From NCBI GenBank assembly GCA_019358945.1, contig JAHHIE010000046.1:1-51727 (forward strand): 51,727 nt of DNA, in the 5' to 3' direction. Every line of letters begins with the position of its first letter. Positions within the stretch are counted from its first letter, which is position 1. Source of the DNA: Stenomitos rutilans HA7619-LM2. GTDB taxonomy: Bacteria > Cyanobacteriota > Cyanobacteriia > Leptolyngbyales > Leptolyngbyaceae. The position numbers and the translations under genes were made by a program. The notes beneath the pieces were generated by a model. The model had not been told where the DNA came from and did no database searches. It worked only from the letters and a program-made list of their open reading frames with translations. Below are positions 36,458-42,089 of the stretch, one piece after another.

Positions 36458-38080
36458 TCACACAGACGTGGTGGATGTATCAAGGCGTTCAACTGGCAGC
36501 ACGATCGCAAAGCAGGTCTGTAATGAGGTACTGGTCACCTGAATCGACCCATTTAAACGCTCGACCAATTTCTTTACAAGGGTTAATCCCAGCCCTGTGC
36601 CGCCCTGCCGCCACCGATCGACGCTGGGAATCCGGTAAAACTGGTCAAAAATCCGAGGCAGTTCGGCAATTGGAATTTCAACCCCAGAGTTGCAAACCTC
36701 AATTTGCAGCATAGGAGCAGTCGTTGGCAGACATTCGAGAAGATGCACAGTGACGTTAATATGCTCTCCGCTCGGCGTATATTTGACTGCATTGTTGAGT
36801 AATTCTGACATCACACGATTCAGGCTGGAGGCATCTGTCATGATCGGCGGCAATGTTGGCTCAAGGCTAACGTGCAATTGCTGCTGTTGGTTGAACACAC
36901 GTTCCTGAAAGTTGGTAGCCAAATTAGGCAGCCAGGTTTGCAAATAGATAGTGGAGATGTCGATCGCGTAGGCATCTGCATTGAGGCGTTGTAAATCTAG
37001 TAAGTCATTGATGAGGCTGGTTTGCCGCTCACACTGGTCGTTCAAAATCTGCAAGTAGCGAATCGTTGAATTTGTGTCTAAATCATTGGTCAAGGCAGCG
37101 TGCTCAGCTCGGCTCAAGGTGACTTCCAACATCCGAACGGCCATTTTAATGTTGGTTAATGGTGTACGCAGCTCATGGGAAACCGTATTCAGAAAGTCAT
37201 CCTTCAGTTGGTTGAGTCTTTGGAGTTCGACCATCTGGTCTTCAAGCTGGTGTGATCGCTCGATCGCCCGATTACGCTCTTCTGCTTGCCGTCGTTCGGT
37301 GACATCACGGAAGACTAGCACAACACCCGTAACATTGCCTGAGTCATTGTGAAAGGGTGCCGCACTATCCGAGATCGGCACGTCTCGACCATTCTTAGAA
37401 CAGAGCAACGTATTGTCTGGAAGGTAGACTAATTGACCTGTTTGCAGCGCCTCATGGATGGGATTTGGAAGCGGCACTCGCGTTTCTTCATGGATAGGGC
37501 AAAAGATTTCGGCACTCTCCTTACCGATCGCCTCTTCTTGTCTCCAACCTGTTAACGCTTCGGCAGCGCCATTAAGAAAGCGCACGCGGCTCGATGCATC
37601 AGTCACAATCACGCCATCACCGATCGCTTTGAGGATACTGGAAAGCCATTGTTCGCGCTCTTGCAAATCCCTTTCCAGGCGAAACCGTTGCAGCGCTGTT
37701 TCAATCGCCACGTAAAGTTCCTGCTCTTCAATGGGTTTCAGCACGTAGCCAAACGGCTCTGTTGCCTTAGCGCGTTCCATCGTGCTGCGATCGGAATGCC
37801 CCGTCGAGTACACCACTGGAATGCGGAGGTGAGTCCAGATAGCCGCAGCCGCCTGTACGCCATCCATGTCACCTTTCAGCCGAATGTCCATCAAGACCAG
37901 ATCGGGTCGCACAGTGGTCGCTGTGGCAACAGCCGCTTCACCCGAAACGACGATCGCAGGCACAGCATAGCCCAAATTTTCTAGACAGTCTTTAATATCA
38001 GCAGCGATGACGCTCTCGTCTTCCACGACAAGAATGTGTACTTTTCTCGTCGCTACAGGCTCGGATGCCGTTCCTTGCAT
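36458..38080 (-). CDS. Receiver-PAS hybrid histidine kinase, coupled to the ethylene-receptor-like kinase
   Basis: A soluble 540-residue kinase whose receiver domain comes first. REC is at about 13-130: EDES acidic residues, phospho-Asp in DLVLMDIRLKGDMDG, switch Lys in VLKPIEEQE. PAS is at about 142-265 (GDGVIVTDASSRVRFLNGAAEALTGW), then a short coiled coil. The HisKA box SHELRTPLTNIKM lies near 300, and the HATPase domain near 415-535 has ELLNNAVKYTPSG, NSGVEI and GTGLGLTLVKKL. The G1 box reads CNSGVEI instead of the usual D-x-G-x-G-I, losing the usual nucleotide-contacting Asp (Asn-Ser here). The ATG at 38080 overlaps the upstream stop as TAATG, so translation is coupled. The receiver is probably fed by the upstream kinase. 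Confidence 0.92.
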   Translation of the reverse strand: MQGTASEPVATRKVHILVVEDESVIAADIKDCLENLGYAVPAIVVSGEAAVATATTVRPDLVLMDIRLKGDMDGVQAAAAIWTHLRIPVVYSTGHSDRSTMERAKATEPFGYVLKPIEEQELYVAIETALQRFRLERDLQEREQWLSSILKAIGDGVIVTDASSRVRFLNGAAEALTGWRQEEAIGKESAEIFCPIHEETRVPLPNPIHEALQTGQLVYLPDNTLLCSKNGRDVPISDSAAPFHNDSGNVTGVVLVFRDVTERRQAEERNRAIERSHQLEDQMVELQRLNQLKDDFLNTVSHELRTPLTNIKMAVRMLEVTLSRAEHAALTNDLDTNSTIRYLQILNDQCERQTSLINDLLDLQRLNADAYAIDISTIYLQTWLPNLATNFQERVFNQQQQLHVSLEPTLPPIMTDASSLNRVMSELLNNAVKYTPSGEHINVTVHLLECLPTTAPMLQIEVCNSGVEIPIAELPRIFDQFYRIPSVDRWRQGGTGLGLTLVKKLVERLNGSIQVTSTSLQTCFAIVLPVERLDTSTTSV

Positions 38081-39945
38081 TACGCCTCACTCCCTGCGAA
38101 CGTAATCTCAAAGGCCGTACCGCGATCGCGGTGCATGATCAGAGTGCCCTCTAACTGTTGAACCAGATCATGCACAAGCTTTAAACCCAGTGAATCTGGT
38201 TTGCTGTACTCAGTCGTCTCTGGCATACCAATGCCGTTATCGCTGATGGTAAGCGCTAACTGGCGATCGCCCTTAACAGAGAGGTTGATCACAATTTCGC
38301 CAGTTTTCTCTGCTGGAAATGCATACTTCAGCGAGTTAGAAACCAACTCATTGATGATGAGACCGCAGGGAATAGCGGTATCAATATCAAGTGATACAGG
38401 CTCAACGTTGGTTTTGAGGGAAATGGCGTTCGCGCTAGTGTTGTAAGAGCCAAATAAACTGATTGCTAGATTAGGAATATACTGGCTTAAATCGATTTTG
38501 GCTAAATCATCAGAACGATAGAGTTTCTCGTGGATGAGGGCGATCGACTTAATGCGGTTTTGGCTTTCTAGCAGGATGTCTGCGGCTTGCTGATCTTTAA
38601 CGCGCCGATGCTGTAGCCGCAGCAAACTATACACAATTTGCAAATTATTTTTGACTCGATGATGAATTTCTTTAAGCAAGACATTTTTTTCGTTGAGTGA
38701 GGCTTGTAACTGTTCTTCTGCTTGACGCAATGCTTCCAATTGTTTGGCGGCTGTGATATCAACTGCAACACCCAAAATTTGCTGCGGCGAGCCATTTTGA
38801 TGCCGTGCAAACAGAGTTTCCTGGCATTGGAAATAATGCCACTCACCATTACAATTTTTTACGCGAAATTCGGTGCTGAGAATATCACCATCGTTCACGG
38901 TATCCCACCGCTTAATATTGATTTGCCTCTGCAAAAAATCGTCTGGGTGCATGACGGTTTGCAAGAAATCTGGCTGCATCGACTGGATTTCATCCAGGGT
39001 ATACCCAAGGTGTTCACCAATTTCATGATTGACGTAGATCTTGTCTTGCTTGACCAAATCAGTAACGTAAATGACGGCTGGGCTGGTATCGGCAATTTTT
39101 TGAGCAAACCGCTGACTTTGTTGCAGGGCAACTTCTGCCTGTTTTAGCTCGGTTACATCACGACCAACGGATTGAAATTCGACGAATTGACCTGCTTCAT
39201 CAAACAGCATCCGGTTGTTCCACTGCGTCCAACGCACTTGTCCTTCCACGACAACTCGATTTTCGCTTACGGCGATCGGATGCTCTCGATTCATCATCTG
39301 GAGGGTGTGATCAATCTTCTTATAATCCTCTGTAAAGATGAGGGGCTTATAAGAAGCCCCAATCGCCTCTTCTCGCGATCGCCCAAAGTAGCGGCAGTAG
39401 GCTTCGTTTACAAAGGTCAGCGTACCGTCTAGTTGAAAGCGTGCAATCAGTTCAGTCTGGTCTTCGACGATCGCGCGGTAGCGGGCTTCGCTCTCACGCA
39501 GGGCCGCTTCAATCTGTTTCCGCTCAGCGATTTCATGCTGTAACTCTTGGTTCGCGGTTTCTAACTGAGCGTGGCTGGGCAAGGAAAGCGCTTTAGGCAA
39601 CAGGGGCACCAATTCCAAAGCGGTCAGCAAAGAAACCGCAGCCGTAGCTGCTTTGACCGCACCTGATAGCCAATAGGCAGGATGCCAGAGCGTCCAAATT
39701 TCGAGAAGATGCGTGGTGCCACAGGCGATGATAAACGTGCCAAACAGCAGAAAGATCCAGCCAAACGGCAGGTCTTGGCGCTTACGCACAAAGTAGAAGA
39801 GCGCGGGCGGAATGGAGTAATAGGCGATCGCAATCACCGCATCCGCAAAGATGTGTAGCCCGACTAACTCTGGTTTCCAAAGGTAGCAGTGGCCGTGCGG
39901 AATGAATGATCCGGCACTAAAGAACGTTTGGATAGCATCCAACAT
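38080..39945 (-). CDS. Ethylene-receptor-like (ETR1/SynEtr1) PAS histidine kinase
   Basis: A membrane kinase of 621 residues. The three N-terminal helices match the plant ETR1 ethylene-binding domain with a constant offset of ten: Asp35 (ETR1 D25), Tyr42 (Y32), Pro46, and the copper ligands Cys75 and His79 (C65, H69) in IACGTTHLLEIW. Two PAS/PAC units follow at about 150-270 and 275-400. The transmitter is of the HisKA_2 type (IHHRVKNNLQIVYSLLRLQHR). The ATPase domain has NELVSNSLKYAFP and DNGIGMP. No GAF/CBCR domain is present, unlike Synechocystis SynEtr1. Binding of ethylene through Cu(I) is strongly suggested by the ligands but not shown. The REC-PAS kinase overlaps its stop. Confidence 0.92.
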   Translation of the reverse strand: MLDAIQTFFSAGSFIPHGHCYLWKPELVGLHIFADAVIAIAYYSIPPALFYFVRKRQDLPFGWIFLLFGTFIIACGTTHLLEIWTLWHPAYWLSGAVKAATAAVSLLTALELVPLLPKALSLPSHAQLETANQELQHEIAERKQIEAALRESEARYRAIVEDQTELIARFQLDGTLTFVNEAYCRYFGRSREEAIGASYKPLIFTEDYKKIDHTLQMMNREHPIAVSENRVVVEGQVRWTQWNNRMLFDEAGQFVEFQSVGRDVTELKQAEVALQQSQRFAQKIADTSPAVIYVTDLVKQDKIYVNHEIGEHLGYTLDEIQSMQPDFLQTVMHPDDFLQRQINIKRWDTVNDGDILSTEFRVKNCNGEWHYFQCQETLFARHQNGSPQQILGVAVDITAAKQLEALRQAEEQLQASLNEKNVLLKEIHHRVKNNLQIVYSLLRLQHRRVKDQQAADILLESQNRIKSIALIHEKLYRSDDLAKIDLSQYIPNLAISLFGSYNTSANAISLKTNVEPVSLDIDTAIPCGLIINELVSNSLKYAFPAEKTGEIVINLSVKGDRQLALTISDNGIGMPETTEYSKPDSLGLKLVHDLVQQLEGTLIMHRDRGTAFEITFAGSEA

Positions 39946-40334
39946 ATTGCTGCTCTTGTTAGGTCAATCATCAAACTAAGCTGTCCCAAAACTAAGCCAT
40001 CCCAAACTGAGCCGTCTTAACGATTCTTTGGCCGCAGAAATCGCTTAAAGAACTCAAAACTGACGTAAAAGTGTACAAACTTCAGTCATTTGGCGCTAGT
40101 GAAGCTGCCATTTCTTATTATTGCTCGGTGAAGCAAAATATAACCGACTGCCCCTTTACTTTCCCTCGTTGAACTTCTCTCTTTGGGCTTCTCTATAGTC
40201 AGCAAGCAGACGGTTTACAATCTTGACGAGTGGCTAGACCTCTAGACCCAAACCTCCAGACATTGCGGCGATCGATTGTTCCAAAAACGGTAATTCTAGT
40301 GGTGCAACAAGCAGAGCTTCAGGAAACCTCATCG
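39946..40334. promoter_or_regulatory. Divergent region between the ethylene-receptor-like kinase and the ABC exporter
   Basis: Three imperfect direct repeats of about 15-16 bases (AAACTAAGCTGTCCC, AAACTAAGCCATCCC, AAACTGAGCCGTCTT) lie at 39973-40018, about 30 bases upstream of the kinase start. They could be regulator sites. The region 40200-40334 holds a possible upstream extension of the exporter frame. No promoter was assigned. Confidence 0.4.
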
Positions 40335-42089
40335 ATGCTGCCAATCTGGCGGGTGATGAAAAGTTTGAGCACGTATATCTGGACAGCGCTCGGCGCACTG
40401 ATGAGCTTGTTACTGCTAACGGTAGCAAGTGCCGTCACGCCTCAACTGTTCCGCTGGGGTATCGACGAGGGCATCGCAAAACGAGATTTACAGGTTGTGC
40501 TATACAGCGCTGGCTGGCTGGTGGTGGCTGCGATCGGACGTGGCTTGTTCAACTTTGGGCAAAGCTACTGGGCAGAAGCCGCCTCACAGGGCGTGGCCTA
40601 TGATCTACGCAACAAGATTTTTAGTCAGATTCAAAACCTCAGCTTTAGCTATCACGATCAGTCGCAAACCTCTCAACTGCTGACCCGTGTTACAAGCGAT
40701 ATTGAACAAATTCGCGCCTTTTTGAGTACCAGCTTGATCCAGGTGATTAATTCGGTCGTGACGCTGGTGGCGATCGCGGTTATTCTCCTGGTCATGAACT
40801 GGAAGCTGGCGCTGATCACGCTGACCGTGGTGCCAATGGCTGGCTGGCTGCTAGCAAATTTTCTCACTCGCAACGGAGCGCTCTTTAAGCAAGTGCAAGA
40901 GCAATTGGGCGACCTCAACGCCGTTTTGCAAGAGAATCTGCTCGGCATTCGCGTGGTCAAAGCTTTTGTGCGTGAAACTGCCGAAAACACCCGCTATACC
41001 GCGATGAATGATGCCCTGGTGCGGGGAAACATGAAAACCATTCGCGCTATTCGCAACACGTTTCCCTTCATCTTTTTGTTAAGCAATTTGGTGACGCTGG
41101 CCGTGTTTGGTTACGGAGGTGCCGAGGTTATCGGGGGACAGTTTTCGATTGGCGAACTGGTGGCATTCAACTCCTACCTGCTGTTGATTTTGCAGCCGAT
41201 TCTGCTGATTGGCTTTGCCGCACCCGCGATCGCCCAAGCAGCCGCTTCCGCCGAGCGGGTGTACGAAGTCGTGGATGCCGAAGTTGAAATTCGCGATCGT
41301 CCCAACGCCGTCCCTTTTGAAACCTGCGGCGGCAGAATCACGTTTGAAAATGTGTCCTTTCGCTACCCTGGTGCCACCACCGAAGCGTTAAAAGAAGTCT
41401 CCTTTGAAACCCGTCCGAATGAACTCATTGCCGTGCTGGGCATGACGGCTTCGGGCAAAAGCACGATCATGAACCTCATTCCTCGCTTTTATGATGCCAC
41501 GGCTGGGGCCATTCGCATTGATGGTCGGGATGTACGGGACTTCACGTTGAAGAGTTTGCGATCGCACATTGGCATTGTGTTTCAAGAAACCACACTCTTC
41601 TCTGGCACCCTACGGGAAAACATTGCTTATGCCAAACCGGACGCTTCAATGAATCAAATCATTGAAGTGGCAAAAGCCGCTCAAATGCACGACTTCATCA
41701 TGAGCTTACCCGATGGGTACGACACCATTGTGGGTGAACGGGGTGTGGGCTTATCCGGTGGGCAAAAACAACGGCTGGCGATCGCGCGTACTCTCCTTAC
41801 CGACTACAACATCCTGATTCTGGACGATAGTACCTCGGCTGTAGATGCCCAAACCGCCGCTCAAATTCAAGCCGCGTTGGATGACCTGATGCGTCAACGC
41901 ACCTGCACCTCGTTTGTGGTTGCCCAGCGCATTAGCACCGTGAAAAACGCCGATCGTATTTTTCTAATGGATAAAGGTCGGCTAGTGGCGCAAGGCACCC
42001 ATCAGGAATTGATGGCAAGCAGTCCGCTGTATGGAGCCATTCTGGAATCACAGGTGAAGCGAGCACCAGAAGCAGCACTCCTTGGTTGA
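40335..42089 (+). CDS. ABC exporter half-transporter (fused permease and ATPase)
   Basis: A type I (MsbA/LmrA-like) ABC exporter of 584 residues from ATG 40335; the frame can extend to a GTG at 40230, but the extra 35 residues are not family-like and AGGA lies ten bases ahead of this ATG. Six transmembrane helices occupy about 1-300 and the ATPase about 340-570. It has Walker A (TASGKST), Q-loop VFQETTLFSG, signature VGLSGGQKQR and Walker B LILDDSTSAVD. The residue after the Walker B Asp is Asp rather than the catalytic Glu, as in the degenerate subunit of heterodimeric exporters. The H-loop His is replaced too (VAQRISTV). It may need an active partner. Substrate unknown. Confidence 0.92.
   Translation: MLPIWRVMKSLSTYIWTALGALMSLLLLTVASAVTPQLFRWGIDEGIAKRDLQVVLYSAGWLVVAAIGRGLFNFGQSYWAEAASQGVAYDLRNKIFSQIQNLSFSYHDQSQTSQLLTRVTSDIEQIRAFLSTSLIQVINSVVTLVAIAVILLVMNWKLALITLTVVPMAGWLLANFLTRNGALFKQVQEQLGDLNAVLQENLLGIRVVKAFVRETAENTRYTAMNDALVRGNMKTIRAIRNTFPFIFLLSNLVTLAVFGYGGAEVIGGQFSIGELVAFNSYLLLILQPILLIGFAAPAIAQAAASAERVYEVVDAEVEIRDRPNAVPFETCGGRITFENVSFRYPGATTEALKEVSFETRPNELIAVLGMTASGKSTIMNLIPRFYDATAGAIRIDGRDVRDFTLKSLRSHIGIVFQETTLFSGTLRENIAYAKPDASMNQIIEVAKAAQMHDFIMSLPDGYDTIVGERGVGLSGGQKQRLAIARTLLTDYNILILDDSTSAVDAQTAAQIQAALDDLMRQRTCTSFVVAQRISTVKNADRIFLMDKGRLVAQGTHQELMASSPLYGAILESQVKRAPEAALLG

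Follow-up and report, generated by a model that had tools for sequence, protein, structure and literature searches.

We describe a pair of overlapping genes on a 51,727-nucleotide (nt) stretch of DNA from the cyanobacterium Stenomitos rutilans HA7619-LM2 (contig JAHHIE010000046.1 of assembly GCA_019358945.1), hereafter called the window. The first gene encodes an ethylene-receptor-like histidine kinase, and the second a histidine-kinase-like protein that opens with a receiver (REC). The two genes are best explained as one co-translated signalling unit, in which the ethylene receptor would act on the REC and the REC would control the rest of the second protein, all within an exchangeable cassette; we give this whole scheme a probability of about 0.62. 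To judge from the comparisons below, the pair is a generic and widespread cyanobacterial HisKA_2/REC-kinase cassette, in which the ethylene-binding domain (EBD) is one sensor among many.

Anatomy of the gene pair

Coordinates are window positions; amino acid (aa) ranges refer to the respective protein.

38080..39945, (-) strand: receptor gene, ethylene-receptor-like histidine kinase of 621 aa, ETR1_N-PAS-PAS-HisKA_2-HATPase_c (open reading frame (ORF) and Pfam)
39580..39867, (-) strand: ETR1_N domain of the receptor (Pfam aa 27-122, residues, model helices)
39154..39483, (-) strand: first PAS domain of the receptor (Pfam PAS, aa 155-264)
38764..39042, (-) strand: second PAS domain of the receptor, PAS_3 (Pfam aa 302-394)
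38443..38670, (-) strand: receptor HisKA_2 dimerisation/phosphoacceptor domain (Pfam aa 426-501; HHRVKNN at aa 428-434)
38098..38361, (-) strand: receptor HATPase_c with canonical G1 box DNGIG (Pfam aa 529-616)
38078..38082, (-) strand: TAATG stop/start overlap (stop TAA 38080-38082, ATG 38078-38080)
36458..38080, (-) strand: second protein, 540 aa, REC-PAS-HisKA-HATPase_c (ORF, Pfam and model)
37703..38035, (-) strand: REC of the second protein (Pfam aa 16-126)
37286..37642, (-) strand: PAS of the second protein (Pfam aa 147-265)
36977..37204, (-) strand: HisKA of the second protein, with H302 in SHELRTP (Pfam aa 293-368)
36488..36835, (-) strand: HATPase_c of the second protein, with canonical N box and G2 box (Pfam aa 416-531)
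36674..36691, (-) strand: atypical G1 box NSGVEI (aa 464-469) at the DxGxG position (alignment of the second-protein kinase core)

The receptor stop and the start of the second gene share one base within TAATG, a gap of -1, and the sequence immediately upstream of it, AGGGAGTGAGG, has by eye the Shine-Dalgarno-like look of a ribosome site. The ETR1_N domain scored 143.9 bits against a Pfam cut-off of 27, and H429 of the receptor was invariant in 13 aligned receptors. A GAF-type light-sensing module was not found in the receptor by Pfam at E <= 0.001; two PAS domains stand in its place. The AlphaFold model of the receptor has long helices at residues 25-55, 62-84 and 91-120, followed by two PAS domains and the kinase core, and that of the second protein has REC, PAS, a long helix and the kinase core. 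Both models agree with the domain calls; their predicted template modelling scores of 0.40 and 0.37 make the placement of domains uninformative. Searches of PDB sequences with the pair returned generic kinase, PAS and REC relatives. A preliminary description of the locus, made from the sequence alone, had given the coordinates, the strand, both ORFs and their TAATG overlap, two PAS domains and a HisKA_2 transmitter instead of the light module of SynEtr1, a receiver at the start of the second kinase, and the retention of Asp35, Tyr42, Cys75 and His79. All of this was borne out by the ORF positions, the Pfam calls and the alignment, in which the receptor carries D35, Y42, I45, P46, I72, C75, H79 and K98.

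The pair belongs to a widespread two-kinase cassette

Pairing was surveyed in the ETR1_N neighbourhoods of the window's order and the HisKA_2 neighbourhoods of its family. Genes were classed by home-made profiles iterated from the window proteins, which weak domains may escape, and a pair was scored when a REC-first HisKA kinase lay within -60 to +150 nt downstream. ETR1_N places on short contigs or fragments (G022:C226, G013:C33 and G026:C381) were left out, as were EBD ORFs with neither HisKA nor HisKA_2 by these profiles (24 in the set for the receptor alignment); 41 genomes were searched for HisKA_2, and 60 of the 70 new places outside the genus were used, the 10 lowest-scoring being omitted. 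Such a kinase followed 13 of 17 EBD-HisKA_2 genes (a set that includes L135, with an EBD remnant), 51 of 75 HisKA_2 genes without an EBD (one at a contig end), and 2 of 55 EBD-HisKA genes (5 at contig ends); gaps in the EBD pairs ranged from -52 to +3. By Fisher tests uncorrected for kinship, EBD-HisKA_2 genes differed from EBD-HisKA genes (p = 3e-9) and not from HisKA_2 genes without an EBD (p = 0.57). Pairing rates are thus alike with and without the EBD and low in EBD-HisKA genes, and therefore pairing tracks the HisKA_2 transmitter, not ethylene; the idea that the pair is specific to ethylene receptors was rejected.

A single origin of the EBD on HisKA_2 kinases is also disfavoured: a 98-row tree, a quick one with only Shimodaira-Hasegawa-like approximate likelihood ratio test (SH-aLRT) support, needs 6 changes of the EBD label, at least 4 of them forced by its starred branches. 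In Mojavia pulchra the EBD is present amid Nostoc/Anabaena relatives that have no EBD and retain the REC-PAS-HisKA partner. The window pair, with its gap of -1, falls within the HisKA_2 + REC-(PAS)-HisKA definition of the cassette, and exchangeability of the sensor in front and of the output behind appears to be the best explanation of these patterns. At L067 and L081 the EBD and the HisKA_2 kinase of the receptor occupy two separate ORFs beside a REC-PAS-kinase, which in L081 is without the phospho-His, and the split may reflect a frameshift, a stop or a sequencing error; both loci were scored as 'no EBD' in the pairing counts and the tree only because the receptor spans two ORFs.

The second protein has an atypical G1 box

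The H box (SHELRTP), N box (LNNAVKY) and G2 box (GGTGLGL) of the second protein are normal. Its G1 box, overlooked in the preliminary description, reads NSGVEI and not DxGxG. It is the Asp of this motif that contacts adenine in GHKL ATPases. Among 15 aligned partners N464, G466 and E468 are invariant, as are D65 and K115 of the REC. NxGxE is present in 13/13 EBD partners of the window's family, versus DxGxG in 27/27 aligned partners without PAS, and the 22 aligned PAS-type partners without an EBD comprise 11 of N type, 4 of D type and 7 without a recognisable G1 box. EBD partners in other families have NxGxE (L289, L291 and L292), NQAEI (L305, L308 and L310), NTTAP (L303) or, in one family, DxGxG (L300 and L302). 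Asn occupies the G1 position in 51/129 REC-first kinases, 7 of the 129 rows being set aside without a recognisable G1 box; a quick tree of the other 122 groups 48 of the 51 N-type rows in a single clade (SH-aLRT 100). The N/E type also occurs in 7/58 sampled HATPase domains of the window's own genome, the second protein included; these are 58 distinct domains out of 120 matches, from loci some of which were picked for their resemblance to the second protein, which biases the N-type share. The G1 change as a hallmark of the ethylene pair alone was accordingly rejected, and the aligned sequences show it to be shared across a broader clade of kinases. No paper naming this variant was found among the literature matches listed.

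The altered G1 box makes it doubtful whether the second protein works as an ordinary kinase. It might not be an autokinase at all: as a REC-controlled phosphatase or phosphotransfer module, it would let ethylene set the dephosphorylation rate of a foreign response regulator. We regard this alternative as a serious one, if unlikely. The fixed NxGxE of the 13 family partners and the invariance of N464, G466 and E468 speak for it, as does the loss of the phospho-His in 5/51 N-type versus 0/71 D-type REC-first kinases (Fisher p = 0.011, kinship uncorrected), the five His-less kinases representing about three kinds (L158/L164, L239/L246 and L081). The HExxT motif, which is associated with phosphatase action, is moreover intact in the second protein. 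Set against this, the N box, G2 box and phospho-His are retained in all 13 EBD partners of the window's family, the N/E pair in the own-genome HATPases is as compatible with a different but functional pocket as with an inactive one, and D-type partners exist in the family of L300 and L302.

The ethylene site is conserved in the receptor

Y42, C75 and K98 are retained in 28/28 other aligned EBD-HisKA_2 receptors, and D35 and H79 in 27/28 each. The sole exception is a paralogue from the window's own genome (L040), which has D35N, I72T and H79Y. Receptor residues Y42, I45, P46 and I72 match Y32, I35, P36 and I62 of AtETR1, which are likewise residues required for binding. The receptor EBD is 52% identical to the corresponding domain of Azospirillum brasilense Sp7, whose protein we equated with AzoEtr1 by strain, length (525 aa) and domains. 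According to PMC11819568, D35, C75, H79 and K98 of AzoEtr1 have numbering identical to that of the window receptor, and AzoEtr1[1-130] binds 14C-ethylene in Pichia; the same source names D25, C65 and H69 of AtETR1 as required for binding and reports that mutation of D25 or C65 (matching D35 and C75) abolishes it. With its site conserved in this way, the receptor is a probable sensor of ethylene gas. A profile search found six ETR1_N genes of differing architectures in the window's genome, and at least one in 36/42 genomes of its order.

The own-genome paralogue L040 (G000:C50, 4252-6498), an EBD-PASs-HisKA_2 protein of 748 aa, no longer has the copper/ethylene site, and the gene behind it, at +3, encodes a 135-aa receiver rather than a REC-kinase. 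At L135 (5701-8397, G038) and L154, the ethylene domain of a HisKA_2 kinase is reduced to about its first 54 residues, and a 155-aa REC gene lies at -44; the sensor domain has apparently decayed there.

L040, without D35 and H79, and the truncated L135 indicate that loss of binding occurs in this group, and the membrane domain of the window receptor could likewise have ceased to sense ethylene, responding to another small ligand or to redox or copper or serving as a mere anchor in a cassette that otherwise works. This is improbable, since the window receptor retains every site residue examined, D35, C75 and H79 persist in 27/28 relatives, and its EBD is close in sequence to that of a proven binder.

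The two genes are conserved together and co-vary

The preliminary description had proposed surveying the gene pair in other genomes. The pair was present in 7/7 examined genomes of the window's genus, the window's included (in G036 the receptor runs off the contig), and 5 other families contributed at least 9 genomes with a REC-PAS-HisKA partner. A class-wide search of 388 genomes with the receptor protein as query returned 30 loci, so that the class-wide counts are lower bounds; in these loci a REC-PAS gene follows 21/21 EBD-HisKA_2 genes. Outside the window's family a REC-PAS protein comes next in 11/11 cases, 9 of these proteins being kinases and 2 having GGDEF. The latter come from two genomes of a sixth other family (L295:3325-4806 and L296:3319-4800), in which the gene after EBD-PAS-PAS-HisKA_2 encodes REC-PAS-GGDEF and then the first part of an EAL domain, at which the sequence analysed ends; an ethylene to cyclic di-GMP (c-di-GMP) link is predicted for these loci. 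A scan of GTDB contigs supplied further examples of the pair in Mojavia pulchra (L162) and Nostoc sp. S4 (L169).

When 64 pairs were compared, the distances separating HisKA_2 cores correlated with those between partner RECs (r = 0.86) and between partner kinase cores (r = 0.75). Shuffling partners within genomes gave a mean of 0.28 and a maximum of 0.59 for the REC comparison, and 0/5000 shuffles attained r = 0.86; with the 36 REC-PAS partners alone, r was 0.90 and 0/2000 within-genome shuffles attained it. In L295/L296 the receiver and PAS are retained and the output domain is changed behind the same receptor type. Co-variation and output swap bespeak co-inheritance and modularity, short of proof of phosphotransfer. 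They also bear on a rival view in which co-expression is all that links the two proteins, and the REC has a different kinase and the receptor a different regulator. Kinases are abundant in the genome (120 HATPase_c matches), and some EBD-HisKA_2 receptors (L040 and L135) have a receiver-only neighbour; against the within-genome co-variation, the overlapping frames and the swap with REC-PAS retained, mere co-expression is very improbable.

A divergent ATP-binding cassette (ABC) exporter gene adjoins the pair in 5/5 other genus loci that are long enough, and in 3/5 the pair is flanked on its far side by a ClpB gene. In the window the exporter gene is at 40230-42089 on the (+) strand, divergent from the receptor, with which it might share a control region.

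Proposed mechanism

In the scheme that we favour, the membrane receptor would bind ethylene via its copper site, and binding would alter how actively the HisKA_2 transmitter autophosphorylates on H429. From the receptor the phosphoryl group would pass to D65 in the REC of the second protein; the REC, through the PAS and the long helix, would control the HisKA/ATPase part, and the second protein would act on a response regulator whose gene lies at another locus. Judged by SynEtr1 and AzoEtr1, the probable effect of ethylene is a lower receptor output. Anatomy, conservation, cassette membership and co-variation come from comparison, and from them we infer ethylene binding, phosphotransfer, its direction and its target.

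Several points weigh against this scheme. The altered G1 box calls autophosphorylation by the second protein into question. Four EBD-HisKA_2 genes have no adjacent REC-HisKA kinase: L040 and L135 have a receiver-only neighbour, and in L041 and L065 a REC-PAS-HisKA gene occurs only at +480 and +398, respectively. The co-variation test was weak for the 28 REC-HisKA partners without PAS (121/2000 shuffles attained the value) and powerless for the 13 EBD pairs alone, among which one genome has two pairs (1008/2000). The final response regulator is absent from the locus, and none was found behind the surveyed pairs, 52/64 of which lack any two-component gene in the next 300 nt; 10 of the remaining 12 have a further REC-HisKA behind and 2 are at a contig end. 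The predicted local distance difference test score of the receptor model is about 50-68 in the EBD.

Relation to known systems

The closest relative is AzoEtr1-AzoRRetr1 of A. brasilense, likewise an ETR1_N-PAS-kinase with D35, C75, H79 and K98 at the same numbering, where the regulator gene start overlaps the receptor stop (PMC11819568). It has a classical HisKA, one PAS and a receiver-only partner, whereas the window pair has HisKA_2, two PAS and REC-PAS-HisKA. SynEtr1 (Slr1212) of Synechocystis is also a cyanobacterial ethylene receptor kinase and signals to the response regulator Slr1213; unlike the window receptor it is a photoreceptor as well, and Slr1213 is not a REC-kinase but activates transcription of the csiR1 small RNA (PMC6682694, PMC11819568). 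Geitlerinema PCC 7105 resembles the window's genome in having several receptors, there two (GeiEtr1 and GeiEtr2), with all seven binding residues retained. These differ in containing GAF, and the neighbours given for them are a lycopene cyclase, a diguanylate cyclase protein and a starch phosphorylase, with no REC-kinase (PMC6682694).

Pathways with two kinases are published or proposed for other stimuli. In BphP1-ExsG-ExsF of strain NT-26, a sensor kinase phosphorylates the N-terminal REC (D62) of a second histidine kinase from the same cluster, and this phosphorylation inhibits ExsG; the system differs in responding to light, in the HWE type of ExsG with its REC directly before the kinase core, and in having its regulator ExsF in the cluster (PMC3899027). 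Hik16-Hik41-Rre17 of Synechocystis similarly has two histidine kinases proposed in one pathway, for salt and H2O2 stress, in a scheme that the source terms hypothetical (PMC3264485). The generic cyanobacterial HisKA_2 + REC-(PAS)-HisKA cassettes share gene order, spacing and domain types with the window pair; in them other sensors replace ETR1_N, and many partners have no PAS and a canonical G1 box.

No ethylene receptor with a HisKA_2/REC-PAS-kinase partner was found among the matches listed in searches of open-licence literature. The preliminary description, which knew of no described system of this form, was only partly right: the kinase pair is generic (51/75 without an EBD), and the AzoEtr1 overlap and the BphP1-ExsG transfer are published. 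Its suggested route from ethylene receptor to REC to control of the second protein is still the best reading, backed by sequence comparison, though the part that made the second protein an ordinary kinase is in doubt. The novelty of the arrangement lies in its sensor; the cassette is common, and each of its steps has a precedent in print.

Significance

The published bacterial ethylene systems that we found are few and have short receptor-to-regulator paths. Here the ethylene sensor sits on a two-kinase cassette in at least 6 cyanobacterial families, a tractable case for multi-step gas signalling. On a bolder and rather unlikely view, ethylene perception would end in a histidine kinase of a new class that is controlled by its receiver, has a rebuilt Asn/Glu nucleotide pocket and acts as an ATP-independent phosphatase/phosphotransferase or an altered-nucleotide kinase behind a sensor-swappable HisKA_2 cassette, and in some lineages in c-di-GMP turnover (REC-PAS-GGDEF-EAL) instead. 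The conserved atypical G1 box poses a directly testable question about the role of the second 'kinase', and this protein, together with the output swap, is the part of the system most worth attention.

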